This document shows, piece by piece, positions 3,310-33,401 of a DNA stretch of 64,000 nt; the first letter of the stretch is position 1, and every line of letters starts with the position of its first letter. Made by a program: the position numbers and the translations under genes. The notes under the pieces were generated by a model. That model had not been told where the DNA came from. It made no database searches and saw only the letters and a program-made list of their open reading frames with translations. This DNA is from Lactifluus volemus (Eukaryota > Basidiomycota > Agaricomycetes > Russulales > Russulaceae), in assembly GCA_022376515.1 (NCBI GenBank), contig WTXI01000090.1:62001-126000 (forward strand), given 5' to 3'.

Positions 3310-5919
3310 TCATTTTCCATCATATGGATGACCCAAGTCGTGAGAAGATGGCGCTGCACCAACAGGACAGCGCGAATCATCTTTGGTGACGTCGGGGACG
3401 GACACTTCTGGCTGGGATTGACGTTCCGGGGCGATCAGTTGCTGCGGCATCGCGAGAGAAATGGCCGTTGCTGAGTCCGGGGAAAGGGACCCACGACCGG
3501 GAGTCCCTTGGTCAATCCGGTATGCGGGAGGCGCCAAGGACGACACTGGATCGGCCGGAGGCGTGTCGCTTCGACCAGATGTAGGGAGAGATGACAATCC
3601 GATACCAGATACAAGAATACCAGGATCTACGTCGCGTTGCGGAGGGACGGTAGACAAGGGACCGGAGAGAGGCCGAGAGATGGATGTCGAAGCTGCAAGG
3701 GTGGGAGGAGGACCAAACTCTGAGTTGGCCGTGGAGGAGATCGCAAGGGTAGCAACTGGACCTTGTGTGGCAAATGCGGTTGTTGGGTCGAGTGAAGCGG
3801 CAGCACAGTTATCCTGATGTTTTTCAACATCGACAGGAGTGAGGTGGGAAGACTCGATAAGTTGGGTGGCCTGGGGAACATGAGGCACTGCAGAAGGAAT
3901 GACGGCGGTGTCGGGTGAAGTGATTGTTGGGGAATGAGTGATCTTGGTTGTTGCGCTGTCGGGATGATGAGCCGGGATATCGCACAATGGGTACGACGAG
4001 GGCTCAGCCAAAATAGATTCACAAGAATCAGTGAAAGCATCGAAGGCAGTCGGGGCAGCACTGGTGCCTTCATGTAATGCGATATACAAACGCCGAATGG
4101 GTCCGAGAATTCCCCACGGAATCCTGTCATCATGATGATTGGGCGCTTCTCGAGCAATTTCGTTCCACAAAGCACAGAAGTTGTGCTGTAGCCCAGGAAG
4201 AGTATTGTGAATGTTGAATTCGGAAATGTAGGAAAGGATGGACTGTAGATGAAAAGTCATGTTTGGGATATCCTCGAGACACAAGCGAAAGAGCGGACGA
4301 GTGATGCAGATCAAATTAGCAAGTAACACGCTGTCACCATGTACGAGGTAATCCTGAAACTCCTCTTCCGATACTTTTAGTTGATCCTTGGCCAGTGTGA
4401 TCCAATGGTCATCCCGTTCGCGTTCCGGCACGTTCGCAATGATACTGGCAATTATCCCTTGGACACATAAACCAGGATCTTCGTCGCAACTGCTTCTCAT
4501 AGATCGCCGAAATTCAACCGATTGCAACACTGCATCTGCGCCAAAGCAGTTAACGGTCGAAATGATGCCTAAAGTTGCATAACGGAGGTTGGCAGCATCT
4601 GCGGCTTTTGCGCACATGATGACCCGCCGATTTCTGTCAGTTTCCGCTACCATATTGGGAGGCATTGTGCGGGTCAAGAACGAAGAAAATACCGCTTCCA
4701 ACGTCGAGTCTAGTTCGGAGAAAACGTTTTCGACGGTGAGGTACAGCAGCTTCGAGCGATAGAAACCAGGGATGGCTTCGAAGAATTGTTCAAAGTCCTT
4801 ATCTTCGTCCAGAGCATGAATTATCCATGTAATGATATGGGTGATGATCCCCGGCGACAAAGTCGAGCCAAATTTCTGGAACGTCTTCGACATACCCTCA
4901 GAGCACCGTTTGCGATATTCTTCGGGGTCGATGTAGCCGATAAAGCTGATGCCGTGATCCCAAAGAAAGAATAGACCTTGGGAGATTGCATATTGGATGC
5001 AAGAATGGAAGAACCACACCGACGAAGAAAGTGGTGCATAGTAGGGGCTATCGTGCCAGAAGATTGGCATCAATGTGATGCATGCGTATAACGTCCCTGC
5101 AACTGCCACCCACCAAACAACCACAGTGAACACAGTATGGTTGATGTTAAACAGATATATAACCAGTCCGGAGAAGAACAAGAACAGCGACAGGTGTAGC
5201 AGGGCTGGCAATGCTTCAACAGACCAAGGAAGGTGAAACTTTTCTACTCCATTGTGAAAGAATGCACGGATTGGTGCTCGCTTCTGCAGACGGGATCGTG
5301 GTGGTTGGGTGATTCTGACATATCGACGCGCCCATTGTTGTAACAATGTGGTGAGGAGCGCACACGTGAGACTGATGACCAAACTGAGGAACCAGAGAGA
5401 GTTGACCAAGACTGCTGAAGTTGGAGGAGAGAAGGGGGGTGGCTGTGCTGGAGTGGCAAGGATGGATTCGCGAGATACGTTCAGGTCAGCGAGGAGTTGA
5501 TAGATGTTCGCAAGATAGAATGCAGAAGTATCCTGTGAATTTGGCTTTAGGTCCTGAACAGAGACTGCGACCAATGCTGCAACGGCAGCGGAGAATAAAC
5601 CAGTCTATAACATTCATGTTGACCACTTACGCTCTGGCGGTAGTGACTAATGTAAGGACTCACGAAGATAAGAATACCGTCAGCATCCTTTTGCCAGCGA
5701 CTAGATATTTTCTCATCTTCATCCTCTGTAATCTTAGTGTACATATTAAAGAGAGGCCCTGAGGTATCCGACAAGTCGGCTTGCTCTTGGGGTTGTGGGG
5801 CTGAGCCTGAGGGATGTCGTGCCTGCTGCCTATAAGAGAGGGTAAAATTGATGATGATAAAGCCGGGCGGATAACATACTCATTTCAACGATCTCTTCTG
5901 AAGGAGCCGTTTGAGACAT
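3310..5919 (-). CDS. DUF6535-type membrane protein A1 (long form)
   Basis: Large basidiomycete-specific family of unknown function. Exon 2 (5664-5829) encodes the conserved GPLFNMYTKITEDEDEK and RWQKDADGILIF. Exon 3 (3310-5604) starts TGLFSAAVAALVAVS and contains about four membrane segments: the TGLF segment, AVLVNSLWFLSLVISL, LLHLSLFLFFSGLVIYL and VFTVVVWWVAVAGTLYA. These are followed by a roughly 350-residue helical region (FFEAIPGFYRS, LPGLQHNFCALWNE) and a long Ser/Pro/Thr-rich tail. The predicted ATG at 5919 gives MSQTAPSEEIVEM, but that first exon is one base out of phase with exon 2, so the true start is unresolved. The protein would be about 830 residues. It is duplicated as A2. A single-pass topology is unlikely; the helical part is probably cytosolic (inference). 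Confidence 0.85.
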
Positions 5920-6894
5920 TGAAGAGTCACGGGCAATGATATGAGGAAGAAGCGCAAATCGAGGTTGAATGTACCGGGTGAAAACCTTGGCGGGGATAAA
6001 TCAACACAGTAGTTGGGCCTTAAAGTCTTATAAACCGCAACACTGATTGTGTATCATGACCCGAATGATCCGAGTCGTCAACGCGTCAACAGCAATCTTA
6101 TGTCACGTGAGAAGAGCCGACTTTGTCCGTGCTCCTAGACGCTCTATAGTACACGATTGCATATTTCCTCCCCAGTTTGCCACTAACCGTACCCTTCCTT
6201 CTGTAATTAGAGCTATGAAACGTCACGCGTACCTTTAATTGCGCGACGTGTTCCGCTCCCATTGGAGGGCTCTTTTGATTAAATGACAACCTTCCATGCT
6301 TCTAGTCTAGTGAAGAAGATATCTCGACGATGAACTACTGGGCGACCTTGTAAAGGCCACTCTGGCACAGACAAGGCAACGGGTCGAATGGCGAGGGCGT
6401 CGAATCCCGAGAAACGTCCGAAACCGTTGTGGTTAAATGGTAAGAAAATGCCTCTATCAACGAACACCCCCCCTCCCCAACGCCAATCATACTATGATAG
6501 GAGTAACCTTTGCAGGCAATTCAGCACTGTTCCGTTTCAGACAAGTACCGGGAGACCCTTGCTGCTAGAGATCATGGGTCGGAATCAGGAAGGCGTTTTG
6601 TCTTGACGACCTATAACTTACTCATCTTTGTACTACATGACCGCTCTGCGGAATGCACGCGAATCAGATAGCGCGAGGAACGTGCCTGCATTGTCAAATA
6701 TGGTAGTTCTCCTTTCCCAGCGTTAAACATGACACAACTCAAAGTCAGGTGTCTGGTCTGAGACAAGCCCTTATCACGATTCTTTCAAAGGGCAAAATTT
6801 TAACTGTAAAAATACTGAATCAAGGGGTCTATTGACCAACAACTGCGTCTGCTTTGACTATGAACACAATACAAGAAACTCTCTGCCTTCGACT
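5920..6894. other. Intergenic between DUF6535-A1 and glucoamylase A
   Basis: No gene seen. The stretch is repeated at about 14367-15473 in unit B with many small indels. It holds the upstream region of the DUF6535 gene and the 3' flank of the glucoamylase. Confidence 0.55.
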
Positions 6895-7728
6895 TCAGAG
6901 CCATTCATCATGTAGAGTGATACTTCCGTTTGCCGGGGTCGAAATCTTGCGATTGGGACCCGGCTCCCAAATTACGTGGCCATCAAACTTCAGAAGGTAC
7001 TTATATTCGATATAGGTGCTTGCAGGGAGCTCCAAGGTAACTTCGAATTCACGTTAGACCAACAGGAAGTGCCCATGTAATAGTAATTGATAAGACATAC
7101 TGGTCCAGATCGGATAATGCTCCGGGGACAGGCGCGGTGCATCGACCGGTGACCAAAGCTTGAGTGCGTCAACGGAACCAGCAATGTATACATTCTCTAT
7201 GGACAGAATCATCGATGCCAAGTCCCCACAACAACGTTGGTGAACTTTCTTACCTCCGAAATTTGTAAGTTTTCGCACGTCGAAAGTAACGGCGACGTGA
7301 ACTTTTGGCCCAGGATTTGGGGTACAAGTCGAGGGCACAACCAGACCCTTTGCACCCCAATTCACTGGCCTGACACCTGCAAAGGAATCACCAGCCGTCA
7401 AGACTGATGCGTAGCTCCAGGTGAGGTCACACGCGCTCGTGGGTGCGCCCGTCTGTCTATCAAATTGCTCTGACAAGCTGCCATCTGAGGGTGTATACTT
7501 GGCGGCGATTTCGATGAAACCGTCGGCGAATATTTTGACTGCACGTCTGATTTGCCAATACTCCCACCCTACTTGGTAGTATCTACCAGTTTGGGTGTTG
7601 GGCCATAATTGGCGGAAGAAGGCGAGGGAAATTTCGGTCACTTCAATGAACTCCCAAGTGAGGAGCGCGTCGTATAGTTGCTCTGCAATCGAAAACGTTG
7701 ACAGGTACTAAGGCTACAAATCATATCA

Positions 7729-10681
<2,953 letters not shown>

Positions 10682-10683
<2 letters not shown>

Positions 10684-10694
10684 CCTCCGGTTGG
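10682..10694 (+). repeat. Target-site duplication, right copy (LINE)
   Basis: Matches 8043-8055. It follows the poly(A) tail that ends at 10683. Confidence 0.9.
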
Positions 10695-11003
10695 ATTCCA
10701 ATACGACTAGGATCACAGAAAGATAAGGATATGTTTCATGGGATATGGAAGGATCTTTCTTTACTTGGAGGAAGCATAGTACATTGGTAGCTTGAGTATT
10801 GTAGGTGTCAATGGAGGCATTTTGACCGAGTTGTGCTGCTAGCGTCGCGCCCTCACGAAGAGCCCTGTGCTGTACGGCTGTGGTAAAGAAGGAAGAAGAC
10901 CTTTTTTCCTCCCAGAGATCGTAACTAGATATATATACATGAGCGCACAAAGGGGGTCTTTCGGGAAAGCGTACACACGTTGTTTGATTCCACCAGGTTG
11001 CAA

Positions 11004-15473: not shown

Positions 15474-17830
<2,357 letters not shown>

Positions 17831-18041
17831 ATATACCCGTCATTACAACATTCACACGTCAGTAGTGACGGCAGGGTGGGGTGATTGAGCTTAAGGCCTT
17901 GAGTACAGTACCTGTTCCTGTGCCATAGAGGTGCAATTTAATGTGAAGCCATTGAATGCGCGACCAAGGGCGCGACTCGGAACAAGGTCGGAGTGGGCTG
18001 GACCGGGCCGGGTCTGGACAGCGGTTATGACTACATATGGC

Positions 18042-18055
18042 AATAGTGCCTTACT
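18042..18055 (+). repeat. Target-site duplication, left copy (truncated LINE)
   Basis: The 14-bp AATAGTGCCTTACT recurs at 33388-33401 immediately after the poly(A) tail of the LINE fragment, although 15 kb of other DNA separates them. Confidence 0.88.
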
Positions 18056-18079
18056 GCCCCTGCGGGGAACCCCTTCAGA

Positions 18080-18087
18080 CCGTAGAC
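18080..18087 (+). repeat. 8-bp target-site duplication, left (giant hAT)
   Basis: CCGTAGAC directly precedes the left terminal repeat. The identical octamer follows the right end at 32980-32987. An 8-bp duplication is the hallmark of hAT transposases. Confidence 0.95.
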
Positions 18088-18111
18088 TAGTGTTGTCATG
18101 GCTCGGCTCGG
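18088..18111 (+). repeat. Left terminal inverted repeat, giant hAT
   Basis: Starts TAGTGTTGTCATGGCTCGG. It pairs with the reverse complement of 32956-32979 with 2 mismatches in 24. Subterminal GGCTCGG or CCGAGCC repeats continue to about 18230. Confidence 0.93.
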
Positions 18112-18259
18112 AAACCGCTTCCAAACCGAGCCGAACCGATTCAAGCCGAGCCGCAGGGCTAAACGGCTCAAGACTTGAATCAGCTCAGCTTGGCAACTAA
18201 GCCGTTTGGGAGCCGCTCAAGCGGTTTCAAGCCGATTCATTTACCAATTTGGATATGCC

Positions 18260-18900
18260 TACTATATATGGTATTTCAACCTGCCACAGCGCCTGTCTCG
18301 AACCGTTCCTGTAGCCCATAATTTCTGCGGCATCCCTTGTCTGCTGGATCATCCACCTTACCTCCCCTCCCTTTCCTCCTCTCCCCAATCAGCTGAGTTC
18401 ACGTGAAATCATGCTTCATGGTGCACGTTGCTTGCTACGTCTCCCGTGCCATATGTTATGAAACATTGGATTGCATGTCCCAGGGCTGTGCTGTGCCCCT
18501 TCTCACACACGTCTTATCATTCCGTAGACTATCTCAGCATCCTCTGCCTCGTTTGCCTGCAACAGTGTTTACCAACTCTGTGATATACATACTCCAGACT
18601 GACTGAATCTTCACACTCGTGCACCTGGAGTGAGCCATTGGGTGACAGTTGACCTGAGCATGGTGGGCAATCTTCTTCATGGTCTGATTCTGGGACTGGT
18701 CTGAGCTGACGATGCTGGTGCATAGATGTCGATAGTGGTGAATACGCTGATGTTCCTCGAGTGTTGATGGAGGTGGTGGAGGACGCGTGGCCATGAGGCC
18801 ACCTGCTGGAGTCAGGGAAACTGGGATGCTTCCTGCAGACTGGGATGTGGTCGTGCCAGCTGCTGGGTGGTGTGGAGGCATGGGAATTCCACCGTGCACA
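18260..18900. other. Left inner part of giant hAT, no gene recognised
   Basis: After the subterminal repeats there is a pyrimidine-rich patch near 18350-18390. A minus-strand open frame of low complexity (Pro/Ser/His-rich, 18534-19007) does not match a family I know. It could be the downstream continuation of the Argonaute relic or other captured DNA. Confidence 0.4.
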
Positions 18901-18959
18901 TGTTCTTGTGGGCATGGCGTGGACCAACTCAGAGGAGCTGCCGAGACAAGTGAACCAGG

Positions 18960-19750
18960 TGAACAACGAGAACACGGACCGAGTCTGCACCAGCTGACAG
19001 AGGTCATTTGGCCTGAGATGCCTCTGTTCCTCGATTTTGCCCTGTCTGTTCCACGTTTTCTACTCCCATGGCAAGACAGAGTCTAGAGTCTGGGATACAC
19101 AGTTGAATTTAAACATGGGACCCTTGAACGTCAACGCCTCCATGCCGTCGTGCATGACGAGGACCTTCCAATTCATCACCCGGGCGCCCTGATAGAACCT
19201 GATGTCCAAGATATTCCAACTGCCATTAGCCACGTGCAGTTGTCCCTTGCCGTACGTCACCGACGGCACCAGAAGCTCGTGACCGGGAACGACAATCATC
19301 TGGTTGGTGACCTGGATACCGAAGGCATTGAGCACCAGTGTGGTTGGTTGTACTGGAAGGTCTGCTTGCTAGCGGAGTTGATGACGACGGGTTGGATGGT
19401 CAATATAAGTTTGTTTGTATCCCAAGTACCGTGTCGATACTTTGACTTTTCCCATAAATTCCCGAGGGATGGCATCATACGAGGCGGCAGAAAAGGCACA
19501 AATCGCGTCGGAGAGTTTCCCAGGTTCGTGGAACGTGAACTTGCACCTGTTGATGTTGACCAGGAGTAGCTTTTTGCCCAGCCGGACTGAAGAGTAGAAA
19601 CCCATGAGAGCCCATATACGTGGACCGATACATATCTTCTCTTCATCATCGAAAAAGTAGCGATTCTTTCTGAACTGGAAGCCCGACTGTGTTGCTGGCG
19701 TTGGACGACAAGGTTGAGAGCGTTGATGAGAGGGTCGACATTGGCCACGT
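18960..19750 (-). pseudogene. Argonaute gene fragment (N and linker regions, PAZ missing)
   Basis: Minus-strand pieces match fungal Argonaute, the small-RNA-guided silencing protein. From 19750 downward: DPLINALNLVVQRQ (N domain); a frame change; RYFFDDEEKICIGPRIWALM and GFYSSVRLGKKLLLVNINRC (N/L1); FHEPGKLSDAICAF; KVKVSTRYLGYKQ; then after only about 15 codons AFGIQVTNQMIVVPG, SWNILDIRFYQGARV and WKVLVMHDG, which belong after the PAZ domain (L2). The PAZ coding region of about 100-120 residues is thus absent, and MID and PIWI are not present. Frameshifts and stops make it non-coding. Captured cargo of the giant hAT. Confidence 0.82.
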
Positions 19751-19759
19751 CGCCTGATA

Positions 19760-20780
19760 GGTACCTGAAGATGGGTTACATCATCCCCAGATCTTTTGCG
19801 GGATCTTTATCACTCCAGCCGTTCCTGTGCTCACGCGCTGTTGACACTGGCCCAATCTCCGACCAGGCTCTCCAAACATAATCACATCCAGTTGCGGCAT
19901 GGCATACCCACACGGAACTGCGTGCAGCCATAATCATACCTAGTTGCAGCTATTTGAATTGGCTTTGAGACGAGCCAAAGCTGCATGACCTGGATTGGGC
20001 TTTAGTCTGGTAGTAGCATCAGAAAAAGTGACAGCCGGATATATGGAAATACATGACATCGTAATAGTTACAAGTCCGGATTTGCTAAGTATTGAAGACT
20101 ACAGTATATGCAGCCAAGAGTAGATTGAAAAAAAAGTCTCACACCACAATATATGAGATGGGGTCACACTGTATCTGACAAGAAGGTCTTGTTATCTGCC
20201 CTGCACTGGGCCAAGGGAATTGCAGTCACAATACAATGTGATACAGGACTTGCCGGTGACATTGGCATAGGGACAACAGAAATGTGGTCTCAATGTGATG
20301 CACAAACTAAATTTCATCATGAATACAAGTAATGTGATACAGAATACTTTGGACTATGTCCTCTACATAGGACTACATTCAAAGGCATAGCATGTAGTAC
20401 TCATTGTCTGCGACCAAGTCTCGAGTCTGAGACTCCGCCGACTCGGAGCTTGCCTGCCAGTGCTGGGATGGCCCGGGTCACCCAAGCTTGCTCACTACGA
20501 GCTTCACACTTGGCCAACATCATTCTCTTTCATCTACTAGTATGTAGTGTCTCTTGTCACAGTCTGGAAGCTTGTAGTTTGTTTTTGAAAGTGATTCATT
20601 CTCTGTCTTAACTCATAACTCAAGGGGAAGACCGCACGCGCTGGACCTACACGGGCCCAAGCCACCAGACTAGTACTTTTCACTTTCTCCACTCCGGGCC
20701 GCCGGCCGTTCTAGCTCCCTTGAAACTTCACGCTCTCTTGCCCTCTTTCCCATGGCGCACCTCCCCACCCAAGCCACTTA
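19760..20780. other. Giant hAT interior, no gene recognised
   Basis: About 1 kb without convincing frames. It includes short AT-rich patches around 20040-20140 and several ACAATGTGATACAG-like near-repeats at 20230-20345. Nothing could be assigned. Confidence 0.4.
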
Positions 20781-20821
20781 GCCACTACCGATGAGGACAC
20801 GTTGCCTCTATTTCAACTACC

Positions 20822-21320
20822 ATGCTCACCACCGAAACCTCTTTTGCGTCCGCGATGGAGTTCTCGTACTCCGGCACTCTTCTTCCACCACGGCCATCCG
20901 CCTCCAACATCCCTCTCCCAAGCTCGATGTCTGTGTCACCTCCTGCACCATCACTACTTCCCGCACGCAGGAGCGTGATATCGCTCTCCGAAGCACTCTT
21001 TTGATGAGTCATCCGGGTCGTCCGAAGTATCAGCTACGAGTACAAACACTGCAAGGCGCGCGGGATGGTGCACGGGCTCGTAGCTGCCCCGCAAGATGAC
21101 GTGGATGCTGTTGTACATTGGAATCAGAGCATATATTAGCGCATATAGGTTGCTTTCGGGCTGCCTTACCCTCTGGTGCGTCGACGGAGCCCTCGAACTG
21201 TGTGATGGTGATACGTCTGACTTAGAACGGGTGGCCAAAGATGCTGAGACCAAAAGTGCGGCAGCCCTCAATGCTGCTGTTGAGCGGAGACCCTCTCTAC
21301 CATTATCCACAGTTAGAGTC
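20822..21320 (+). pseudogene. Captured unknown coding fragment
   Basis: A plus-strand frame opens with an ATG at 20822 (MLTTETSFASAMEFSYSG, then Pro/Ser-rich with SVSPPAPSLLPARRS). A one-base shift later it reads DESSGSSEVSATSTNT. Further on, SGCLTLWCVDGALELCDGD and DLERVAKDAETKSAAALNAAVE look protein-like. A pyrimidine-rich leader precedes the ATG, as in a fungal promoter. I do not recognise the family. Frame changes and its position in the element suggest a captured 5' gene piece. Confidence 0.4.
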
Positions 21321-22150
21321 AGTCCCTTCTATGTTCTCCATTTATCCCTTGCAACTCAGCATCATTACAGCCTTCACGAGAGGACTCTGCCAGCAATGCT
21401 TCCCCCCCGTCAACTCCCCTACAGCATGTCAAACTTGGTTCAAGTTCCTGTCCTCCCACACCGGGCTCGCATCAGCCGGCCTTTCCCATGCACTACATCC
21501 GAAGCAGCCAATCCAGACAGGAGGAGGAGAGGGGGGGGGGGGGGGGGGGCGAAGGGCTTCGGGTTCGTGTCCGTCAGAGTCAGGTGAGGCTTCGCTCTTT
21601 AACGAACGGCTTGTCGAAGAGTAGACTTTCGGGCCTTCGTTCTTCGTCGTCCTTGTTGACATCATCACCACCCAACAGCGCCTCTGTACCTGGAGGCACG
21701 GCTGATTCGCTTTTTGGCCTATGCTTGCGCTGACGTTTACGAGCGTGCTTGCCCATTACTTGTCACAGAGTGTCGAGTCGAGCATGGATTTTTCGAACCC
21801 GGCCCGCGTTGTTCCGTCCCAAGTCGATGTTCCGGTCTTTCCCGCTGTGAATCGTATCTTTATCTTGATCTCCACAACAATTTTATGACTGGTTTGCGCT
21901 GATAGATGGCTCAGTGGCGCATAGCCAGGAGGCACACTTGCGACAGGCTTGTCGGCCGCATCGATCAGGTCGATACAGAAGTTGCGAGTACGTTGGATAG
22001 GCAGAAAAGCGTGGAGGAGGGCGGTAAAAGTCTGCAAGACGCAAGTCAAAAGTTCGTTGGATGAGCGGGTGCGTATTGCCTTCCTCACACATCTTTCGGA
22101 CGCATAGAGGAGCTTGATATTTGTGTCGTCATTTTACAAGATCAACTGGT
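21321..22150. other. Giant hAT interior with a G19 tract; no gene recognised
   Basis: Contains an uninterrupted run of 19 G at 21531-21549 after a purine-rich lead-in. Open frames across 21400-22100 look like shadows. A short frame at 21960-22080 (DTEVASTLDRQKSVEEGGKS) could be a coiled-coil remnant belonging to the I/LWEQ gene that follows. Confidence 0.4.
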
Positions 22151-22203
22151 GGAGTTGCAAATAGCTATGCTACACACTCGAACTCGTCGACCGCAAACAA
22201 CGT

Positions 22204-22690
22204 ATGAGCGTCGCGATGTGCAATAACAGCGAAGTTTGCGGTGCGCTCACGAAGCTATCCGAATCGGTCGAGGCGATCATCCCCAAGGGCAAGTCTCTCG
22301 CTAACGCCAACGGGGACATTGGCGATCTCGTCGAACAAGAAATGGTCGGCGCCACAAGGGCGATCGAGGCTGCGACGCAACGCCTTCAACAGTTCATGGC
22401 GCGTCCGCACGACTCGACGCACTTCTCCACCATCGATCTGCAAGTCCACAACTCGACCCTAGCCGCCGCTCTGGCGATCACCAACGCGATCGCGCGTCTG
22501 ATCAAAGCGGGGACCGACTCGCAGCAAGATATCGTCGTGCAGGGCAAGGATGCCAACTCGACCCAACAATTTTACAAGCGAAACAATCGGTGGACCGAGG
22601 GGATGACCTTGGGATACTTTCAGGAACTGAGAATGCGATGCGCCTGCTCAATCACCCTGGTGAGTCGCCCGTTCTCCAGACGTTCTTAAT
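22204..22690 (+). pseudogene. I/LWEQ (talin/Sla2-type actin-binding) fragment
   Basis: The frame contains ALTKLSESVEAIIPKG, GATRAIEAATQRLQQFM, AAALAITNAIARLIKAGTDS, QQDIVVQG and STQQFYKRNNRWTEG. These are signature blocks of the C-terminal I/LWEQ (THATCH) actin-binding domain of the endocytic adaptor Sla2/End4/HIP1R. In intact genes the domain continues for about another 100 residues after RWTEG. Here the frame degrades into unrelated sequence from about 22600. The large N-terminal ANTH part is not present. It is cargo of the giant hAT and not expected to give a working protein. Confidence 0.82.
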
Positions 22691-23189
22691 AATCAAATCT
22701 GTCTGTTCCAAGCTTCATCAACCGTTGCCTAATACGTGTTCTCCTTTGTCAGCGGTGTGGGTAGTGCCATCTCCCTAATCATCCTGCAGACAAAGAGCTC
22801 AAGTGGGAGGAGGAACACCATGTAAGTGCAAATTGTTCTCGACATGAGGTTTCTGTTTGTGGATCCTAGGCATGCTGTGGATGCCCCACCTTCCTTAATG
22901 AGATGAATTATTTGTTCTGCAATTATATCATGATGTCTGGCCTGAAACATGCTTATTTTGAGATGTAACACAAAACTGTACTAGCAAATTGTTGTACATG
23001 GCAGTACATGAGTCAAGCTCAATACATTCCCATACAGTAGAGATTCACAATGTACTCAAGTATATTCTAATAAATGGTAATACATGGTCTGCATCAACTA
23101 CATTTCAATGTCAGCCGTTTCACAATGCATTCTGTTGCAGGACTGGTAAGACATACAACAAATGTGGTATTATATATCATAATACATAA
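22691..23189. other. Giant hAT interior, no gene recognised
   Basis: AT-rich DNA with several GTACATG/AATACAT-like short repeats between 22990 and 23180. Nothing assignable. Confidence 0.45.
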
Positions 23190-24838
23190 TTATATAGTGG
23201 GCCATCTTTTTTTCTGATGTAACCAGTAGCACGGCGTCAGCGCGTTGGGGACCCAAGCCCCATGTCTTAGAAAGGTAAGCTTTCGCACTTGAGATATTGA
23301 ACATCTTGCCACCAATTGCACGTGACACGAGACTAGTGGAATGCTTTCTGAGATTGCCGGAGTGACAAGATGCAAGGGAAGCACCAAGTTCCTCGAGCAG
23401 CAGCTCCTCGCCCCTGTCAGGCGCAGATGAGAATTCATTAGCCCTGAACGTCGCCTATAGTCTCATTTTGAAGGGTCGACTGCCGTTACAGAGATCCCTT
23501 ATAAATTGGACCTCGCTGAGTTGCTTTTTTAACTTTCGAGAGACAATCGCAGCAAGGATGTTGACAGCATGGATCGGAGTGTCTTTGATGGTAACAGCAG
23601 AACCAGTGGCAGCTGGAGTCGCTTCCAGACCATGATGGTCGGGTCGCCCCTGTGTCGACATTATTGGGGTTGGGGCTACACATCTCGTCGTTCGAAAGGA
23701 TGTTGTGGAACTTGAGAAGGCGGTCAGGAGGGTACTGAAAGGAAGGTTGGATGGCGTGGTCAGGATACATCCAGGCGGTTAGGGTCTTGACGGGGATCTC
23801 AGTGCCAATTTCAATGGCGTTCCCAATGAAGAGAATGAGAAGGGGAGGAAGAACGATGTGACCGATAATATGTTTCTTCAGGTCCTCCCAGTCTCTTTTA
23901 ATGTCGGCGAGGAACTGCTTGAGCTGTGCGACCGCTCTCTCCGCCTTTTCCAACTGGTGCTGGACGTCTTCCCATTCCGCCTGAGCCTCCTCCGGGTCTT
24001 CCATCTTTCCAGCAAGCTCCAAGCGACCCTTGAAATGGCTGATAACCTGGGTGTCCCCGATCTCCTTCTCATAGTCCTTGATACGAGCGTCGGAGCCATT
24101 TGTACCCAATAACAAAACATTCCTGCGGGGTCCGGAGCTGTTGTACTCGTAATGCTCGTTCTCCTCATCGACACAGAAAAGAATGTGTTTGGCTGTGAGT
24201 AGGAAGTTCGGCTTGGAAGAGACAGTGAAGAAAAACGTGGCAGTTCCCTGAATGAAGGTGTCTTTTTGGCACAGATGGTGATACTGAGGTAGCAACTGCG
24301 ACTGGCACGCTTGGCAGTGGAAAGGCGCTGGAGGGGCAGTTTCACTGGCTGCATCTGGTACAGATGTTGCCTCAAGCTCACCTTCGAACTGGTAATAGAT
24401 CTCCTTCTGATGCTTTGAAACACAGAATATTCGACAAACAATGCTAGTTGAGTCATCCTTCGCCTCGTATTTGGTCTTGAGGGTGCGTACAGCCGTGGGC
24501 AGATGGGGTGCAACAGATGACCCATCCGAGCTGATCAGACAGTGTGCCGAGATCAGTCGAGATAGGGTCTGTGCAAAAGGAGGAGGATGCGGAGGAGGTC
24601 TATGTACCACAAATACACCCAATGGAGAGATAGAAACGAGGTGGGCTGGACGAAGCCTTTCGAGCGCATATCCCCGAATGCAGCACGGGACATAATTACA
24701 AGGGCGATCTGCGCAAACTGGGTAACGAAAATAAGGCCTTTCGGATGAATGAGAGTGTGTTGAAGGGTGCGGACGTTTATATCAGCGAATAACGGGAGAC
24801 TCTTGATGTTGCCATCCCAATCTGTCGTCTCATGGGTT
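23190..24838 (-). pseudogene. Fatty acid synthase fragment, copy B (MPT-ACP, rearranged)
   Basis: Second, more damaged copy of part of the fungal type I FAS. From 24838 downward: a malonyl/palmitoyl-transferase start (SLPLFADINVRTLQH, FVTQFAQIALVIMSRAAFGD, MRSKGFVQP), a deletion of most of the MPT domain, then its end ([13 protein letters not shown]). Next come a linker ending ETAPPAP, the foreign insert described separately, and the ACP start (VTIKDTPIHAVNILAAIVS, RKLKKQLSEVQFIRDLCNG). A stop at 23455 follows, then decayed ACP sequence (GEELLLEELGASLA, YLSKTWGLGPQRADAVLLV in another frame) to about 23215. It is joined head-to-tail to copy A directly after HEIATSGTT. Non-functional. Confidence 0.85.
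23624..24287 (-). pseudogene. Protease-like/coiled-coil gene fragment inserted in FAS copy B
   Basis: Within FAS copy B about 660 bp of unrelated coding DNA interrupts the ACP linker. The target sequence continues on either side as in copy A. The insert reads FFFTVSSKPNFLLTAKHILF, CVDEENEHYEYN, RNVLLLGTNGSDARIKDYEK, a charged coiled coil (EEAQAEWEDVQHQLEKAERA), IIGHIVLPPLLILFIGNAIEI and GTEIPVKTLTAWMYP. This order resembles a hypothetical family common in Agaricomycetes with a trypsin-like fold (TAKH..LF resembling the His motif). The family assignment is from memory and tentative. The fragment is partial. Confidence 0.6.
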
Positions 24839-27800
24839 GTACCAGAGGTGGCGATCTCATGGAGAACATCCAGGTAGACACCTGTCAGATTAGAGCTGTA
24901 CTCCCACTCGGACTCGGTACTGATGCGACGCTTGAGATGGAACAGGGGAATCTTGTCAGCAGACACCGAGGCGATGGCTGAAATCTGACGCCGCACGAAC
25001 TGGGATGATGAACGACGGCTACGGGGGACACCGGGGCGCGGGTGGTTATCAGGTGCCTTGCGCAGCGAACGGATGACATCATCATAAAGGGCCTTGATAG
25101 GGTTCTTCTGCTCCTCGCTGATTTCTGGTTGAGACTTGACGACGTCATCCTGGATCTTCTGAATGTTAATTGAACCAGACATCTGTTCGGCACTGGCCAT
25201 CTCCTCCACATACGCCTCTAGTTTGCGTACGTTCTCCTGGTTGACTTCAGAGTAGACGATATCACCCTTCTCAGTGATCTCGGTGCGAGGCGCGGTGGGG
25301 AATGTGACTAAAGAAGCGTATGAGAAATGCGTATATGGGCCTGATAGGAAATCCTCACCATCCTTATACAGCGGCGGCTGGCCAACTACACCATGGCAAC
25401 TGTCGAGGAGTTCTTGACCAAGCTTCTTTGCAGTTGCATATGTCTCACCCTTTGAGGGGTCACATCGATTGACCATAAACTCCATAAATTTAATGAGATC
25501 GGGGTCTGCGCGATTCATTATGGCGATACAATGGTCAGTGATCTCACAGTCGACGGTAGTGAGACGGCCGAAGAGAGAATCGTAGAACATGAGGAGAGCG
25601 TCTTGACGAACCCAGTTCCACGAGGAGTCGAAGTGACGAACCTTCAACGCATCAGAGACGGGCTGGACACCGTCAATGTAGGCACCATCACCGTGCTCAC
25701 GCGCAATATTGTCGAGTCGAGCTTGAAGCTGTGTGGAAGTAGCCTTCTCTTTGTCGTGCAGAATCTCGCCTTGGCGGGGTCATTCTTCAAGTAGCGAGAG
25801 TAAAGGTTAATTTGCTGGTGCGTGAATTCATACTGCTCAGCTTGGAACTTGAGGAATTCCTGGCTGTTCATCACAGCACGTCCAGAAGGGCCTCCGGCAC
25901 CACTGCCGGAACCACCAGTAGAAAGAGTGATGCCTACAAGCTGATGAGCATAGACTTGTGCAGCGGCATCGAGCCAAGCTTTACCCTCGGCCTCTGAGCC
26001 CAGGCGCATGGCGGGCTCCATGATGGTAGCAATCAGTAGCACAGCGTTGGCGCGTTGGGGACCCAAGCCCCATGTCTTAGAAAGGTGAGCTGTCGCACTT
26101 GAGATGTTGAAACCACTGGGCATCTTGCCACCAATTGCACGGGATACGAGACTAGTGGAATACTTCCCGAGATTGCCGGAGTGACCAGGAGCAAGGGAAG
26201 CGCCAAGTTCCTCGAGCGGCAGCTCCTCGCCCGTATCAGGTGCAGATGAAAACTCGCCCTGAAGGTCGCCCATAATCTCATTTTGAAGAGTCAGCTTGGC
26301 GTTAGAGAGATTCCTTATAGACTTGGAGAGAGGGAACTCGCTGAGTTGCTTCTTTAACTTTTGAGAGACAATCGCAGCAAGAATGTCGACAGCACGGATC
26401 GGAGTGTCTCGATGGTAACAGCAGGACCGACGACAGCTGGAGTAGCGGTAGCAACTGCGACTGGCACACTTGGTAGTGGCGTGGGCGCCGGAGGTGCAGT
26501 TTCACAGGCTGCATCTGGTACAGATGTTACCTCAAGCTCATCTTCGAACCGATAATAGATATCCTTCTGCTGCTTTGAAGCACAGAATAATCAACGGACA
26601 ACGCTAGTGGAGTCATCCTTCGCCTCGTATTTGGCCTTGAGGGTGCGTACAGCCGTACCAGTGAGAGTTGGGGATGGGCTAACCTCGATGAAGCGTTCAA
26701 ACCTGTACTGTCCGAAGAATAGATCTTGGGTTTCGATCCAGTGCACGGGAGAAGCAAACTGGTAAGATACCAGCTCGACTAGCAGAACCTAGGTGAGCTT
26801 CTGCCGTTGCTCGGGAGCATCCCAGCGTTCTTCATCCCAGTTGCATGAACTTTCGAGAGCCGTGGAGATGATGTGCGGTTATAAATGAGTTCGGCATAGG
26901 CTTTGTTGACGGCGAAGGGCGATGCGATTAAGTTAGGGATATAGACGCATTCGAGAAGCGACGGGTCCCGGAGAGTGGATAGTACTTTCTTCGATAGGTC
27001 TGAAGGGTCACTTAGATTGAGCGAGAGCGAAAAGGAAAAGTACACTCACATGCACGGAAGAGCATGATGCCAGACCAGAAGTAACGGGAGTGGAAAGGAA
27101 CACCAATGCCTGCGAGAGGGATAGTGGCGAGACCGCGTTCAAGCACAATATAACCTTCGGTCTTTAACTTTTCGAGGGCATGGTCGTAGCAGTTGTTGAC
27201 GATGTCCTTCAACATATCCTTGACTTTAGCGAGGCCAAATTTCTCAGTCAGCGGGACTGTGATTGTGAACGTAATGAATGACCAGAAATCTAAGGATACA
27301 TGCCTTAGTGATATCGACCTTCTGTACCTTGAAGCGATTGAGGACGTTCGTCAAAGTTTGGAATGCGACAAGCTCGCCAGCACTGACATATTGTTGGCTC
27401 TGGTATCGATCAGTAGCTATATAGCAACATAAAAATGGTGACGCACCTCGACTTTGAAATTCACGATCTCCAATAGGCAGTCTCTGGCATTGGAGATAGT
27501 ATCGACGACCCCGCGGAGGGCTGCATCATCGAACGTCTGGCTAACACGACTGGGAATGATGGCACACATGGCATAGTTCGAGGAGCTCAGCTCGTCATGT
27601 TCGACAGCATGCTGCATGGTCAGACCACGGTAAAAGACCACATCGACGAGAGGGGAACCGGGCAAGATATCAGTAACCGAAGCGAGAGCAGAGAACTCAC
27701 CCAGTGAGTGGCCAGCAAAAGCGGCATCAAGCTTTCGAGCGCCTATCCTCGAACGCAGCACACGACATAATGACAAGGGCAATCTGCGCAATCTGGGTAG

Positions 27801-29255
27801 CGAAAAGGAGACTTTTGGATGAGTGAAGGTGTGTTGAAGGGTGCGGACGTGTATATCAGCGAACCATGGGAGGCTCCTGACGTTGTCATCCAAATGTCAT
27901 CTCCATATATCGCTCACGGACGATTTCTACAATAGAACATCCATAGGCAGAGATTAAGTGTGCGTATACAGCTCCATACCCAAACCCTGCTCCTGCGAAC
28001 CTTGGCCGGTAAATGAATCGACAGTGGGCGGCTGCGCGACCTCAGTAGTTCCCTCAAGAACCTTCTCAACATAAAAAACATAGGATTGATCTCCTAACAT
28101 GTATGTTGTTCGCATGGTACCATGACTCCCGTCATGCCCGGATACGAACGAGTAGGCTGAGAAACTTGATCAGGTAACTTGATCGCGTTTGGGTCGAGGT
28201 CTGGAGGCTGTGGGTGATCAGTAAGACCCTGTTTCTGTTCGTTTCGTCCTGGGACAAGCCGTGCTTCGGCGCAACTGGACATGAATAGACCTGACGGATT
28301 ACGATTCGCGATTGCTGCTGAGGAACAACTCCGGTATCTTCTGAACGTCGCCCCGCACTCCGCTCCGGGTTGGCGGCACATGCCTTTATGCGATTTTGTG
28401 ATTTCATAGGGAAAACCATGACGTGGTAACGAAGGTAGAACAGTGACCGGCACCGTTGACAACGAACGGTTGCCTGAGTGGAACACCATGGATCGTGGGC
28501 TGCAAGCGTTGTGCGCAAGGTCTTGACGAGCACCCAGTCTGACTTGATTGGAGTGCGAGGGGACCAAGTCAAAGACGAGGATGAAGCGGGGACGACGGTA
28601 AGAGCGGCAGTGACCGTCTCGGAGATCCGCGTATCTGTATAAGAGAAGGGAATCAGGGACAGAAGGAAGTCTCCATCATCCTCCATCAAGGAATTTGTGT
28701 ACTCACTTGTGCACGCGATCTAGGATGCCCAAGGCCACGACAGTCTCCACGTAGCGCAGAGCGCTGGAGAACATGCCGTGAGTGATCGTACCCGGCAATG
28801 ATGCGTACAAGGAAAAGTAGGGATTCGTGTGAATGGGGTTAAAGTCCTCCCAGACCTTTGAATAGGGTTTGTTGGTGGTTGGTGCACGGTAGACGGAAGG
28901 ATTTGCGCTTTAAGTAAGATGATATTCGGTAGGAAGGGGATCGGTGCCGACTTGTCTGATTCATGCCGTTGAAGGTAGGTCGTGACGGGATTGACATGGC
29001 ATTCATCGCGCTCGAAGTCAATGTAAGCTACCTTGACTGAGCGACCAACATGTCACCTGCGACGGCGACTGAGTGGTAGCTCACTGTGTAAATTCGGTGC
29101 GAAGGCAGAGATGAGACGGGTTCCAGTTTGGTCTTGTCGACCCACTCGAACCAATCCCTGGACAGCAGAACACCGACATCCGCATCAGAGGCGAGCTCAG
29201 CTATGTAATCAGGCTCGTCAACGATCTCGAAGGTGTTTTTGTAGTCTGTGAAGCG
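24839..29255 (-). pseudogene. Fatty acid synthase fragment, copy A (DH-MPT-ACP-KR start)
   Basis: Minus-strand relic of a fungal type I FAS in normal domain order. Dehydratase N part (RFTDYKNTFEIVDEPDY, SRDWFEWVDKTKLEP, 29028-29267). MaoC dehydratase ([39 protein letters not shown], near 28700-28850). MPT ([17 protein letters not shown] near 28010; AFAGHSLGEFSALASV; VPFHSRYFWSGIMLFRA). ACP (LSKSIRNL to GEELPLEELG near 26230-26340). Post-ACP region (GGKMPSGFN, YSRYLKNDPAKA) and KR-preceding part (FDSSWNWVRQDALLMFYD, TAPRTEITEKGDIVYSEV, SSNLTGVYLDVLHEIATSG). Introns remain, e.g. inside YKD/VTFPTAPR near 25300-25360. Frameshifts are frequent, and the ACP serine motif GGKST is replaced by NAKLT. 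Not functional; cut on the right by the nested hAT. Confidence 0.88.
29248..29255 (+). repeat. 8-bp target-site duplication, left (nested hAT)
   Basis: GTGAAGCG, identical to 32573-32580 on the other side of the nested element. Confidence 0.95.
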
Positions 29256-32200
29256 CAGCGTTGTCATGACCCGGGTCTGACGAGGTCAGACCCTGACCCA
29301 GGGTCGAGTGGCGTGACTTTGATTGACCCGGGTCATAGGGTCAAGGGTCCGTGGGAAACTTCCATATCGGGGATCACGCAGCATCGATTATCGGATAACG
29401 CAGCATCGATTATCGTCCAACGTCCCGCGAAGAGTTGTGGGCCGCAGCAAGAGACACAAAGTGATAGGCAACATGAGTAATACAAATGTTTCAGTCAACG
29501 CCAACCTGCATAGCTAGAATCTCGATGTTACTCCCCTCGAGATTCTCCTCGCTTGAGTCAGAACACAAAATCTCATATGCTTCCATCTCGGTTTCCAGGT
29601 TCTGAATACCTCCTCTCCAGAACGAGTTCATTCCATCGGGAGGCGGGTCTTTGTCAGTTGGGTATTTGAAGAGGGTTTTGAGGGGGATAGAGGTTTTCTT
29701 CACTTGAGTAGCCTGGTGCGTTAACGTTGCCGAATTTAAAGGAGGAATAGTGATTCTCAGGGGTGGAGCAGGTGGAGTGAGCTCGTCATCATCGCCTACG
29801 TCCTTGTCGTCATTTGCAGAAGCCGCCCCGGCGATGAGAACCTCGGATAATTGATTGAAATCGAGCAGATCTGAGGCATCGGCGATGTCAAGATCAGACA
29901 GTTCGCACTTGGGTTCGCACTCAAGTTCGTGCCCAGATTCTTGCTCGCCAGCTTGTGTAAAGCTTCGTTTACCTCGAGTACGAAGCAGCCCTGCTTCCAG
30001 ATGCATTCGCTTGATGTCCATTCCCACCATGGTTGTCTTGCGAACTTTCTCGACGCCTAGTTTACTGCGGATACCTGTGTGAACAAGCCCCATATGACTG
30101 AATGCACGTTCACAGCCGGCTGAGTTGGCGACGACACTGAGAATGTGGATGGCTAATTTTGTGAGATGGTTGCGGCCAGTATCTTCACCTGTATCAATCC
30201 CTTCCCATATTTCCACCGGATTCGCTTCCTGTCCCTGTTGGATGTTACAATGGCAATAACTTCGAAGTACTACACCACAGCTTACCTTTTTCCCTGCAAC
30301 ATCTGCCCAGTCTGCCAGAGCCATGGCATCTGGAGAAAATTCCTCGCGTTTATTATAGTAATCCATAAACGCGGCTTGGAAATCAGCATCAACGGCCACC
30401 CTGAACACACGAGAGTGTAGACGCTTGAGCATGTTACACAACCCAATCGGTGTCAAAGCAATGTGTCGCCCCAGAAAGTCCCCACGGAGGAAGGGATTAA
30501 GGACAACGGCAGCAATAAATGGGTCCTGATCGGCAGCTGCCCAGCGCTTCTCGAGGCTAGTGAGAACCTGATTGCGCACATCCAAGTCCTCTTCAAGGTC
30601 GAGATTGGAATAAATGCGGTGGAGATTGGCAAGCGTTGTGAGAACATGATAGAGCCGTGTATTTGATGCTTGAGTGATATTAGCTGCAATTGCAAGTGGC
30701 TCAAGATGGCGGCAAGTCCTATTTATTGAATGCGAATCAGCAAGTCTATGGAACATAGAATTGTGACACTTACATTCTGACATGGTGCCAGAACTTTGGA
30801 TCTTCAATTACCCCCTTTACTGCAGCGGCCTTTGCCTGCTCGTCACTTTTGGAGCCAGCGCTCGCAATCATTGTGTCGTTATGTTTAAGCCAGACCACCT
30901 TCAAAGGTGTCTCAACGGTGAGAAGTCGTCGAAGTGAAAGATAGTGTGCAGTCCATCGGGTGAGTACTGGAAGGATAAGGGCCAAGACTCTTTGGTAAGT
31001 GTATTGTTGTTCCTGCCGAAATAATCCCAATGCACGACTGTGATTATTCATCCACTTTATCACATTCAAAGCCTTTGGGACGCAATCTTGGAATGGAAGC
31101 TTGAGAGCTAGGTAATCCCCAACAATAAGGTTGATTTGATGGGCCCAGCAAAGAATGATAATAAGCCATGGCATCAGCGCAAGAAGTAATCGCCGCATTT
31201 TCCGTGCATCCCCACCATCATCAGAGCATGCTCCGATAATCGTGTGGCCATAAATCTCCTCGCTCCATTTGATGTCCTCCACAACGAGGTTCAGAAGAGC
31301 TTCCCCTGTCTTTGGTTGCATAGAAACATCATGGGTTCGCATTAAATATGGCTATGTGGCAAGATATATTTAGTGTTAGCGCAGCGGCCAGATGTGGGAT
31401 TCATGCGCTCACCTCGAAGTCTACACTAACCATTGTAGCAACGATTGCCTGCTTAGCTTTGTTCTTCCATCCGTCTGTCTGAAATGTTGCTTTCCGTCCT
31501 CTCAGCTTCAGCTTTAATTTATCCTCAACCTTTCGCACTTCTCGATCAAGGATCGGACCTGATAAGGTTCGACGATCCGGCACTATTGCCCCCGGAACCC
31601 ACTTCTCAACAAATAAGCGCACTTGGGGATTATGTGCAGTGTTCCATGATGCGCGTATTGCAATGAGGAGTTTACAGAAATCCTCTCCAAACTCTTGCTG
31701 TAGCGGTGGGTTCCATGCTCTTACCGGCATCGCTGGACTCGACATGGCTGAGCCCTCCACAAAGCTCGATGCACGAGAGCGTTTCAGGGGCCGTTCGAAA
31801 TTTAGTAAAGGCGCAGAGAATAAGAGTGGGCTTGGGGCTGGGGATGGTGTTCCCGAGTTACTCCATCTGACAGTCGGATGAGGAACTTGGTCTAATCCTG
31901 TCACAATAGAAAGTTGGGGCAGACTGATTGAACGTCCTAGGGTGGGAGGATTTTCGCGGTGGGGTTTCTTCTGGTGGATTTCTTCCAGGGCACGAATTCT
32001 GATATCTGGTGCAACAAAACTGCATTTGCTTAGATGCGGGACCATTGATTGACCCGGTTTTCCTGAGATCGGTTGACACAGTATGCGTGCTACATAATAC
32101 AATGTATAATGGCTTCAGGTACAAAAAATTATGTAGCAACCTTGTTCCTCTCGCTCTGTATCTGTGCGGCCACCACTAACGCCACTAATTGCTGCACCAA

Positions 32201-32572
32201 TAACGTCGGCTTGTCGTAGCTGGTCCTGCTGATAATCGAGGCATGCGATGCACCATGCATTCTTGTAAGAGTTGTTGTTACGGAACAAAAGGCCATCAGT
32301 AATGAAAAAAATCCATGACCAGTGTTTTGTGGACATGATGGAGATTCGGAAAGGGAGAATGAGAGGCAAACAGAAGGATCAATCGCCTGCACACGATGTT
32401 TCAACGCGGTTTGTGCATGGCAATCGATTGTAACTCAGTAATCTAATCACATCGTGATCACATCCTAAATAGGTATGACCCTCATTTGACCCTTGACTAA
32501 GTCAGCCGACGCGACGTGACCCCTCTGACGTGACCTCTCTGACCCCGGGTCAGCCCGACCTGTACAACACTG
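29256..32572 (-). mobile_element. 3.3-kb hAT transposon, probably autonomous
   Basis: The ends are imperfect inverted repeats starting CAGCGTTGT on the left and CAGTGTTGT on the right (reverse complement). Both are followed by GACCCGGGTC-like subterminal motifs, and a perfect 8-bp duplication flanks the element. It contains a single transposase gene on the minus strand. Inserted into the FAS relic of the giant element, so it is the youngest of the three nested insertions. Confidence 0.94.
29491..32336 (-). CDS. hAT family transposase
   Basis: Cut-and-paste DNA transposase, multi-exon. From the ATG at 32336 the N-terminus has a BED-like zinc finger split by an intron (NAWCIACL ... MVPHLSKC). 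Then comes a Ser/Pro region, FVEKWVPGAIVPDRRTLSG, and the RNase-H-like core: FQTDGWKNK, IIGACSDDGGDARKMRRLL and CWAHQINLIVGDYLALK with the conserved C..H. Near the C-terminus is the hAT dimerisation segment VANSAGCERAFSHMGLVHTG and IRSKLGVEKVRK. Introns include about 30712-30775 (HHVRM/TCRH) and a GT-AG intron near 30226-30286 (AGKK/GQEAN). The last exon ends at 29491. No stop was seen inside the conserved blocks, so it may be functional. Exon limits in the N-terminal half are approximate. Confidence 0.85.
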
Positions 32573-32580
32573 GTGAAGCG
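32573..32580 (+). repeat. 8-bp target-site duplication, right (nested hAT)
   Basis: GTGAAGCG, matching 29248-29255. Confidence 0.95.
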
Positions 32581-32829
32581 ACCACTTTAGTCCGCTTTGA
32601 TACTCAATCATAACCAAGAGGGACTGACCTGCCAGGCGGAGATATGCACCACACAAAATGTATCCTCCAGGGCCGTGAAATCCATTCCCTGGTTGCGAGA
32701 TTGAGCTTGTAAGCGATGCACAGGTGTGCCCAGAGAAGACATATGTCGAGGAAGCTGATGATGCAAATGCCAAGTGAAGCCTTGTTGACGGCGGCCAGTG
32801 TTTTTTCTGACACGGTCACTACCCCAAAA
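32581..32829 (-). other. Giant hAT cargo right of the nested hAT
   Basis: Original continuation of the cargo before the nested insertion. Joining it to 29255 extends the FAS frame only a few codons (KAD, stop, SGRFTDYKN), so the FAS fragment may end or hit an intron here. A minus-strand frame with a hydrophobic stretch (SLGICIISFLDICLLWAHL) is not recognised. Confidence 0.45.
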
Positions 32830-32955
32830 GAGGAAAATTAGACGGCTCAAGCGGCTTGCGAGCTGAATCGAGCCGAGCCGCATAGTCGAATCGGCTCGGC
32901 TCGGTTCAGCTTGGTACGAATTACCAAAAACGGTTGAAGCCGAGCCGAAACCGAG

Positions 32956-32979
32956 CTGAGCCGAGCCGTGACAACACTA
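32956..32979 (-). repeat. Right terminal inverted repeat, giant hAT
   Basis: Ends ...GTGACAACACTA on the plus strand. The reverse complement starts TAGTGTTGTCACGGCTCGG. Subterminal GGCTCGG repeats extend leftward to about 32840. Confidence 0.93.
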
Positions 32980-32987
32980 CCGTAGAC
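32980..32987 (+). repeat. 8-bp target-site duplication, right (giant hAT)
   Basis: CCGTAGAC, matching 18080-18087. The LINE reading frame resumes right after it. Confidence 0.95.
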
Positions 32988-33387
32988 CATGTGGTCTCGC
33001 ATTGCCCACTATATACAGACGCCCGCCAAGAAATCCTCCGCCCGATCGACCGCGATATTTCCCTCCCCGTTCTCCTAGGCACAGCCGAGGGTGGTGCTGC
33101 CATGACCCGCTTCCTGAAAGCGACGCGCGCCTGCATAGCCCCGAGAGAAGCGTGGAACCCGGGATGATGTCCCCTTAGATAGATTGTACACCTTCTCACT
33201 GTAGATAGTACCCACTCTCTACTCCCTTCCCCGCCCCCAAAACAGCCATCCTTCCGTCCAGCCCAACGTTATACCTCACCCACATTCCCCCCGCCGCCTG
33301 ATCCATTCCTGTACCCATAGGGACCGCGTCTTTGTCATAGTCACATGTTGCGGGATATAAATGCTGATTTAAAAAAAAAAAAAAAAA

Positions 33388-33401
33388 AATAGTGCCTTAC
33401 T
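33388..33401 (+). repeat. Target-site duplication, right copy (truncated LINE)
   Basis: AATAGTGCCTTACT, matching 18042-18055. The first As overlap the poly(A) tail. Confidence 0.88.

Follow-up and report, generated by a model that had tools for sequence, protein, structure and literature searches.

What is a 14.9-kb stretch of fungal DNA that ends like a hAT transposon and is filled with fragments of host genes? We analysed a window of 64,000 nucleotides from Lactifluus volemus contig WTXI01000090.1, in which an initial annotation had described positions 18088–32979 as a single, very large hAT element. We put at roughly three in four the probability of the reading as a whole, in which the window element has moved recently, cannot move by itself, and belongs to a family of large hAT transposons whose transposase-bearing members also carry cargo, filled by repeated, repair-type template switching. 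The direct evidence consists of the ends, 8-bp target site duplications (TSDs), two empty sites, the same captured DNA at different insertion sites, and matching loci elsewhere in the genome.

The window element starts with TAGTGTTGTCAT at 18088 and closes at 32979 with the inverted counterpart GTGACAACACTA. On both strands together, the motif GGCTCGG occurs nine times in the terminal 300 and 170 bp; the rest of the window (63,530 bp) has five. The inverted ends, the dense subterminal repeats and the perfect 8-bp duplication had all been claimed beforehand, and all are present:

18080–18087, no strand: left copy of the TSD, 8 bp, CCGTAGAC, read at the flank
18088–18930, plus strand: left end, with a perfect 11-bp terminal inverted repeat (TIR) and a subterminal GGCTCGG region, from sequence
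32573–32979, plus strand: right end, a family-wide terminal segment with subterminal GGCTCGG repeats and the inverted TIR, from sequence
32980–32987, no strand: right copy of the TSD, CCGTAGAC, read at the flank

We searched the genome (62.4 Mb in 628 repeat-bearing contigs, labelled here C1, C24 and so on) for the end sequence TAGTGTTGTCA with at most one mismatch, using the reversed pattern as a control. The pattern was found at 31 places, 17 of them exact and 14 with one mismatch (14 of 14 reading TAGTGTTGCCA), and the control at none. These ends resolve into ten facing pairs, spanning 12,307 to 43,478 bp, and 11 single ends; no shorter pair was found under this strict pattern, which diverged ends would escape. 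Thus, the ends recur as pairs 12–43 kb apart, and nine of the ten pairs have a perfect 8-bp TSD:

Window, CCGTAGAC; C607, CTGTACGG; C79, GGTCCGGA
C618, TCTCAGGG; C76, GTTTATAG; C146, GCCCCTAT
C1, ACCCACCT; C43, GTAGTGTT; C501, GCTGCGGA

The termini read TAGTGTTG(T/C)CA, and the perfect TIR is 11, 12 or 22 bp long in the six complete copies measured. The TIRs of hAT elements are short and begin with the consensus (T/C)A(A/G)NG, which the family ends fit; the family therefore shows both hAT hallmarks, 8-bp TSDs and a short TIR with this start. Helitrons have neither TIRs nor TSDs, and membership of that group is ruled out by the presence of both. Starships would be recognized by a tyrosine-recombinase captain at one end. 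The left-end segment of the window element (18088–18930), whole or in parts, is shared with C607, C618, C76, C589 and C79 at 77–87% identity. With nested DNA subtracted, core lengths are 8.4 kb for the window element, 10.0 kb for C607, 13.1 kb for C618, 12.6 kb for C76, 15.7 kb for C79 and 15.2 kb for C589; part of the size of the elements is nested DNA between long direct repeats, resembling long terminal repeat (LTR) elements. Elements with TAGTGTTGCCA ends make up a second subfamily (C1:139482–155173, C43:53281–66973, C146:210226–222532 and C501:149324–163594), 12.3–15.7 kb in length, with perfect 8-bp TSDs in all four.

The target of the window insertion resembles part of a long interspersed nuclear element (LINE) and is bordered by ATAGTGCCTTACT duplications:

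18054–33389, plus strand: LINE-like 3' fragment, short (roughly 436 bp when rejoined, 18054–18087 plus 32988–33389) and with poly-A, identified as LINE by the initial annotation and by reading the joined frame

Empty sites were sought for three insertions, those of the window, C607 and C79. With the window flanks rejoined (400 bases, join at 208), 34 of the 40 listed matches span the join, and seven of these show 100% identity along 226 bases; the window's own flanks account for two of the 40. Six retrieved LINE-like copies align with the rejoined target over 431–440 bases at 99.3–100%. At the homologous place C212:305301–306300, read over 1 kb, neither the LINE-like fragment nor the element is present: the match to the window is 100% up to 18055 and resumes from 33388 at 97.7%. 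The uninterrupted target of C607 was found on C365 (query positions 1–252 of 252, 98%). Intact LINE copies, which the initial annotation had proposed to look for in other strains, thus exist within this genome, and a second insertion has its empty site as well. On these sequence comparisons, the window and C607 insertions are recent. In the left flank, frames at 17098–17839 contain what we take by eye to be a piece of a glucoamylase-type gene.

The view of the interval as one primary 14.9-kb unit is rejected in light of two nested elements within it, without which the window element measures 8,372 bp:

20017–23219, no strand: nested 3.2-kb TIR element, TIR CATCAGAAAAA, from the genome search (repeat span 20016–23220)
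29256–32572, minus strand: nested hAT of 3,317 bp, ends CAGCGTTGTCA and CAGTGTTGTAC, with its own 8-bp TSD GTGAAGCG, from sequence

In whole-element genome searches, where 39 of 233 candidates were scored and copy counts are lower bounds, the 3.2-kb element has at least seven further copies at 96–99% identity; no clear TSD was seen at its borders. Within it, at 22165–22689 on the plus strand, lies an I/LWEQ (Sla2/HIP1-type) gene piece, which matches HIP12 (1.8e-12), Sla2 (0.0011) and also talin chains, and for which a Pfam scan gave zero matches. This piece had been noted previously and is indeed present, but its assignment as cargo of the window hAT is rejected, as it belongs to the 3.2-kb element, which is perhaps a second, independent pack-type element. 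A segment at C1:1971595–1972026 is 95% identical to part of the 3.2-kb element and may be the donor. The nested hAT has pieces at 97–99% on C105 and carries transposase remnants at 29491–32114 on the minus strand, with a DUF659-like match below the Pfam cut-off and Dimer_Tnp_hAT just above it. The earlier statement that no transposase was to be found is thus wrong for the interval and right for the window element's own core, since the remnant belongs to the passenger.

What remains of the interior is a mosaic:

19116–19776, minus strand: Argonaute piece, 88–90% to loci on C24 and C156
23221–23622, minus strand: FAS piece, L023 5963–6379
23623–24287, minus strand: captured 665-bp coding segment within FAS DNA, from comparison with C607
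24288–24494, minus strand: FAS piece, resuming directly from 23622 in L023 coordinates, from the L023 alignment
24644–28068, minus strand: FAS pieces with ACP, helical and acyltransferase domains, from Pfam and the L023 alignment
28662–29255, minus strand: FAS piece, L023 8244–8881, 85%, in direct contact with the right terminal segment until the nested hAT inserted between them

The Argonaute and FAS pieces had both been named in the initial annotation, and both identifications hold. The former lacks about 324 bp from the middle of the C24 and C156 loci and retains about 12 bases of a predicted intron end; its ArgoL2 (4.5e-6) and ArgoMid (6e-4) matches lie below the Pfam cut-off, and other partial Argonaute matches are on C43, C11 and C235. 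Near-identical locus pairs such as C24/C156 (98.9% over 3.4 kb) suggest two haplotypes. The FAS pieces, which are rearranged, score with FAS_I_H (7e-51), Fas_alpha_ACP (9e-62) and Acyl_transf_1 (2e-13), and window 24836–27920 is collinear at 91% with 4761–7871 of L023, which we take to be a host-like FAS locus with a fused gene. FAS-like partial copies, mostly at 81–92%, also occur on C233, C612, C390, C625, C146, C20, C207, C79, C26, C130 and others, and may be paralogues, family relics or cargo of other elements. The label "protease-like", formerly given to the 665-bp segment, was dropped: its three protein matches are all unnamed or hypothetical fungal proteins, its best Pfam E-value is 0.05, and no PDB match is convincing.

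Sibling elements contain further host genes. In C618, positions 8019–10948 align for 2.96 kb, at 93% identity, with PIGO (GPI ethanolamine phosphate transferase) loci on C268 and C24, where the frames are long (902 and 909 amino acids). The copy in C618 has a stop codon and keeps an intron of the predicted gene structure, which on that prediction indicates that capture copied DNA. Among the best 120 of 3802 relatives of the C268 protein, the closest with a species or genus name are from Russulales: Lactarius indigo (66%), Gloeopeniophorella (65%) and Russula brevipes (71%, with 60% of the query aligned); an environmental protein reaches 69%. The host therefore looks like a member of the Russulales. 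In C589, two cargo searches, with 40 candidates scored out of 81 in one and out of 80 in the other, identified a Sel1-type piece like C13 (96%), pieces like C445 (93%), C596:737324 (96%) and C340/C112 (99%), SulP like C596:642710 and C215 (98%), pieces of C46 (87–96%), and FAS pieces. Host gene DNA between TIRs with a matching locus elsewhere, as in Pack-TYPE and Pack-TIR elements, is therefore found for Argonaute, PIGO, Sel1-type and SulP. Because the element interiors are mosaics and do not follow one host locus, we infer that the matching loci are probably donors and the elements recipients. The Pack-type hAT family that had been suspected is thus well supported by paired ends, TSDs, empty sites and mosaic interiors: the elements form a genuine hAT family that packs genes, has many copies and was active recently. 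None of the outcomes that the initial annotation had named as refuting it came up in these comparisons, the empty sites being clear for two of the three insertions examined.

C589, C79, C618 and C76 have a common core, about 90–99% identical in aligned blocks. In C618, the core holds an intron-rich hAT gene with 12 predicted exons, GT-AG introns of 43–54 nt and an 852-amino-acid product that is open as predicted. The predicted protein matches Dimer_Tnp_hAT (8.7e-18), with no second Pfam domain, and Hermes (3e-14, residues 522–806 only); its best relatives are Agaricomycete hAT proteins of Pleurotus and Mycena at 42% identity. Read by eye, it may also have a BED finger and RNase-H-type DDE catalytic motifs. 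LTR-like DNA interrupts the frame in C76, a 443-bp insert interrupts that of C79, and C589 has one stop in the last transposase exon. A search with this exon gave 64 matches, six of which lie within six of the ten pairs (C618, C76, C79, C589, C43 at 66% and C146 at 54%); four of those outside pairs, at C607:349816 and on C181, C187 and C130, lie 3–22 kb inward of single ends. Such co-occurrence of ends and transposase is suggestive without being exclusive. What the window and C607 elements have in common with the transposase-bearing ones, in a comparison that covered part of C224, is the ends and pieces of cargo; the transposase is absent from both, and the window copy would therefore need help in trans. 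Hence, the label "non-autonomous" that goes with Pack-type elements fits the window copy and not the family, as C618 combines an open predicted transposase with cargo.

The order of captures can be read from nested pieces. C589 runs through FAS 6051–6885, C46:487065–487177, SulP, C46:487182–487342, PIGO, C46:487425–488336 and FAS 6911–7080. Thus, the C46 pieces lie inside FAS DNA, and SulP and PIGO lie inside the C46 stretch. Identities are 84–91% for FAS (97% for one flanking piece), 96, 92 and 87% for the C46 pieces, 93–96% for PIGO and 98% for SulP, so that identity would seem to increase inward through the nested captures, if only roughly. We examined five C589 boundaries base by base, by eye. 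Two bases, GG, are common to both sides of the C46|SulP join, and TGAG to both sides of the PIGO|C46 join; there is one additional T at SulP|C46, and a few bases at FAS|C46 are assignable to neither side. In the window, the 665-bp segment entered FAS DNA without loss or duplication, and by eye has no TSD or TIR; C607 retains the uninterrupted FAS state, and so represents the state before this capture and the window that after it. The window, C618 and C76 all pass from FAS DNA (at about L023 8880) into the right terminal segment at the same junction, which places the FAS capture ahead of the separation of these lineages.

We propose that the family hAT transposase, encoded in sibling cores, would bind the TIR and GGCTCGG ends and move the window copy in trans by cut and paste. 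A break or an excision gap in an element would be repaired by copying that changes its template to host DNA and then returns to the element; the filler left behind would have 0–4 bp of microhomology or small indels at its joins. Repeats of this step would set new cargo within old cargo; older cargo would be lost over time and, in the window lineage, the transposase too. We hold with moderate confidence that cargo is gained by such template-switching repair.

Several observations weigh against this reading. Identity is no clean clock, since the 97% FAS piece and the 96% C46 piece contradict the nesting order. Two of the five boundaries show microhomology, two have extra or unassigned bases, and C46|PIGO gave no clear reading. 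FAS DNA occurs at many loci, and Argonaute DNA at fewer, so that the true donors are ambiguous. The flank of C79 falls in a tandem cluster, which spoils the empty-site test there. The window copy carries no family transposase, and the last-exon search found no match in the window, C607:735815–755010, C1 or C501, four of the ten pairs. As 58 of the 64 exon matches fall outside pairs, the ends are tied to the transposase by co-occurrence alone. Finally, the C589 pair (C589:2926–18166) has no TSD, although its aligned blocks are about 99% identical to those of C79; it may have arisen through ectopic exchange or be part of a duplicated segment.

A narrower form of the template-switching reading differs in the origin of the break: gaps at breaks in resident copies would be filled independently of transposition, which merely spreads the result. 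Gap filling is favoured for single-copy animal Pack-TIRs, with a median microhomology of 2 bp (PMC8277862), and the family joins resemble theirs. Against this stands the captured DNA of the family, which is multicopy at distinct sites with distinct TSDs, two of the insertions being recent; we reason that capture and transposition therefore alternate, and consider breaks of purely independent origin rather unlikely.

Alternatively, the outer ends of two neighbouring copies could have mobilized everything between them, later rearrangement producing the mosaic; neighbouring insertions followed by re-mobilization have been proposed for plant Pack-TYPEs (PMC8903248). Some observations fit such macrotransposition. 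A scrambled end relic at C24:491150–491700 (L063) and an end match at C156:39198–39240 each lie about 5 kb from an Argonaute locus. The left subterminal segment (C589 element 412–748) resembles a dispersed repeat at C24:765545–821579 and C268:208690–251946, whose nearest copy to the PIGO locus on C24 and C268 is about 5 kb away. Some GGCTCGG motifs are internal to elements (6 of 15 in C607, 5 of 14 in C76 and 3 of 12 in C618). However, the cargo traces to several loci spread over different contigs, its pieces (from about 30 bp up to 3 kb) are nested in one another with small target losses, and no internal end matched the pattern in the six exact-ended elements, a search that did not extend to weaker relics at cargo borders. 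We therefore regard macrotransposition as improbable. The C24 relic and the C156 end match may bear on uptake of the Argonaute piece.

Misassembly, or a normal locus caught between hAT-like ends (to which the 628 repeat-bearing contigs and the C589 pair without a TSD might point), and reverse transcription of spliced mRNAs (to which some joined gene pieces that skip parts of the host locus might point) are both rejected as barely credible: the former given nine perfect 8-bp TSDs, the core at distinct sites in four elements, two empty sites and gene loci elsewhere, and the latter given the predicted PIGO intron, the retained bases of the predicted Argonaute intron end, and several FAS gaps that fall within one open L023 frame (5216–6964), not at splice sites.

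How does the family compare with known elements? In wheat-pathogenic Pleosporales, ToxhAT is likewise about 14 kb (14.3 kb) between inverted repeats, with a hAT transposase gene, cargo genes and a nested second DNA transposon; it is reported to have 74-bp TIRs and ToxA-linked genes, and no TSDs were found (PMC6737239), whereas our family has perfect TIRs of 11–22 bp, many copies, 8-bp TSDs, varied nested gene pieces and a basidiomycete host. The histone-H3 hATs of Pyrenophora tritici-repentis (5.6 kb, presented by its authors as the first DNA-transposon transduplication in fungi; PMC3538342) and Pseudocercospora fijiensis (9.5–9.9 kb, 8-bp TSD; PMC6710886) also combine a transposase domain with captured host coding DNA. 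As described, one captured gene was amplified there (with one central open reading frame in P. tritici-repentis; PMC3538342), whereas here capture is nested and the candidate donor loci number at least seven. Size by itself, which had been taken as the novelty, does not hold up as such, as cargo-bearing fungal hATs of 9.5–9.9 kb (PMC6710886) and 14.3 kb (PMC6737239) have already been published.

Outside these fungi, maize Ds2/Ds-l4 elements have Ac/Ds hAT ends, filler DNA and rare gene fragments with an intron, for which a repair origin was proposed; Ds-l4 elements are non-autonomous with a modal length of about 1 kb, whereas the family is large and has filler in a transposase-bearing copy as well (PMC3260210). 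Plant Pack-TYPEs and animal Pack-TIRs, like the family, have host DNA between TIRs and a TSD, and the breakpoints of the latter show microhomology; the former are described as non-autonomous and the latter as mostly single copy, whereas the family couples cargo and transposase in one lineage (PMC8903248, PMC8277862). No Pack-MULE of one 2004 study exceeded 7 kb, according to a review (PMC6431247). Helitrons of Pleurotus and other fungi also capture gene fragments, but are rolling-circle elements, as opposed to elements with TIRs and 8-bp TSDs (PMC4289320). Titles and abstract starts of open-licence PMC articles gave, among the matches listed, no earlier large gene-packing hAT in Basidiomycota, a weak negative. 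The family is known in kind; what is unusual is that a transposase, large cores and captures in layers occur together.

There is continuing debate over the way in which cut-and-paste transposons come by host genes. Here, one genome offers candidate donors, siblings with and without a capture, layered captures and empty targets, so that the repair, macrotransposition and gap-filling models become testable base by base. hAT-ended units with a core of 8–10 kb once nested insertions are set aside (window, C607) have moved recently, and gene packing occurs in transposase-bearing copies too. We tentatively suggest, as a proposal that may or may not hold, that this is a self-packing hAT lineage, in which transposase-bearing copies repeatedly add host gene DNA into earlier cargo in a layered, readable order. 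If so, it would be a standing gene-shuffling engine in a basidiomycete.

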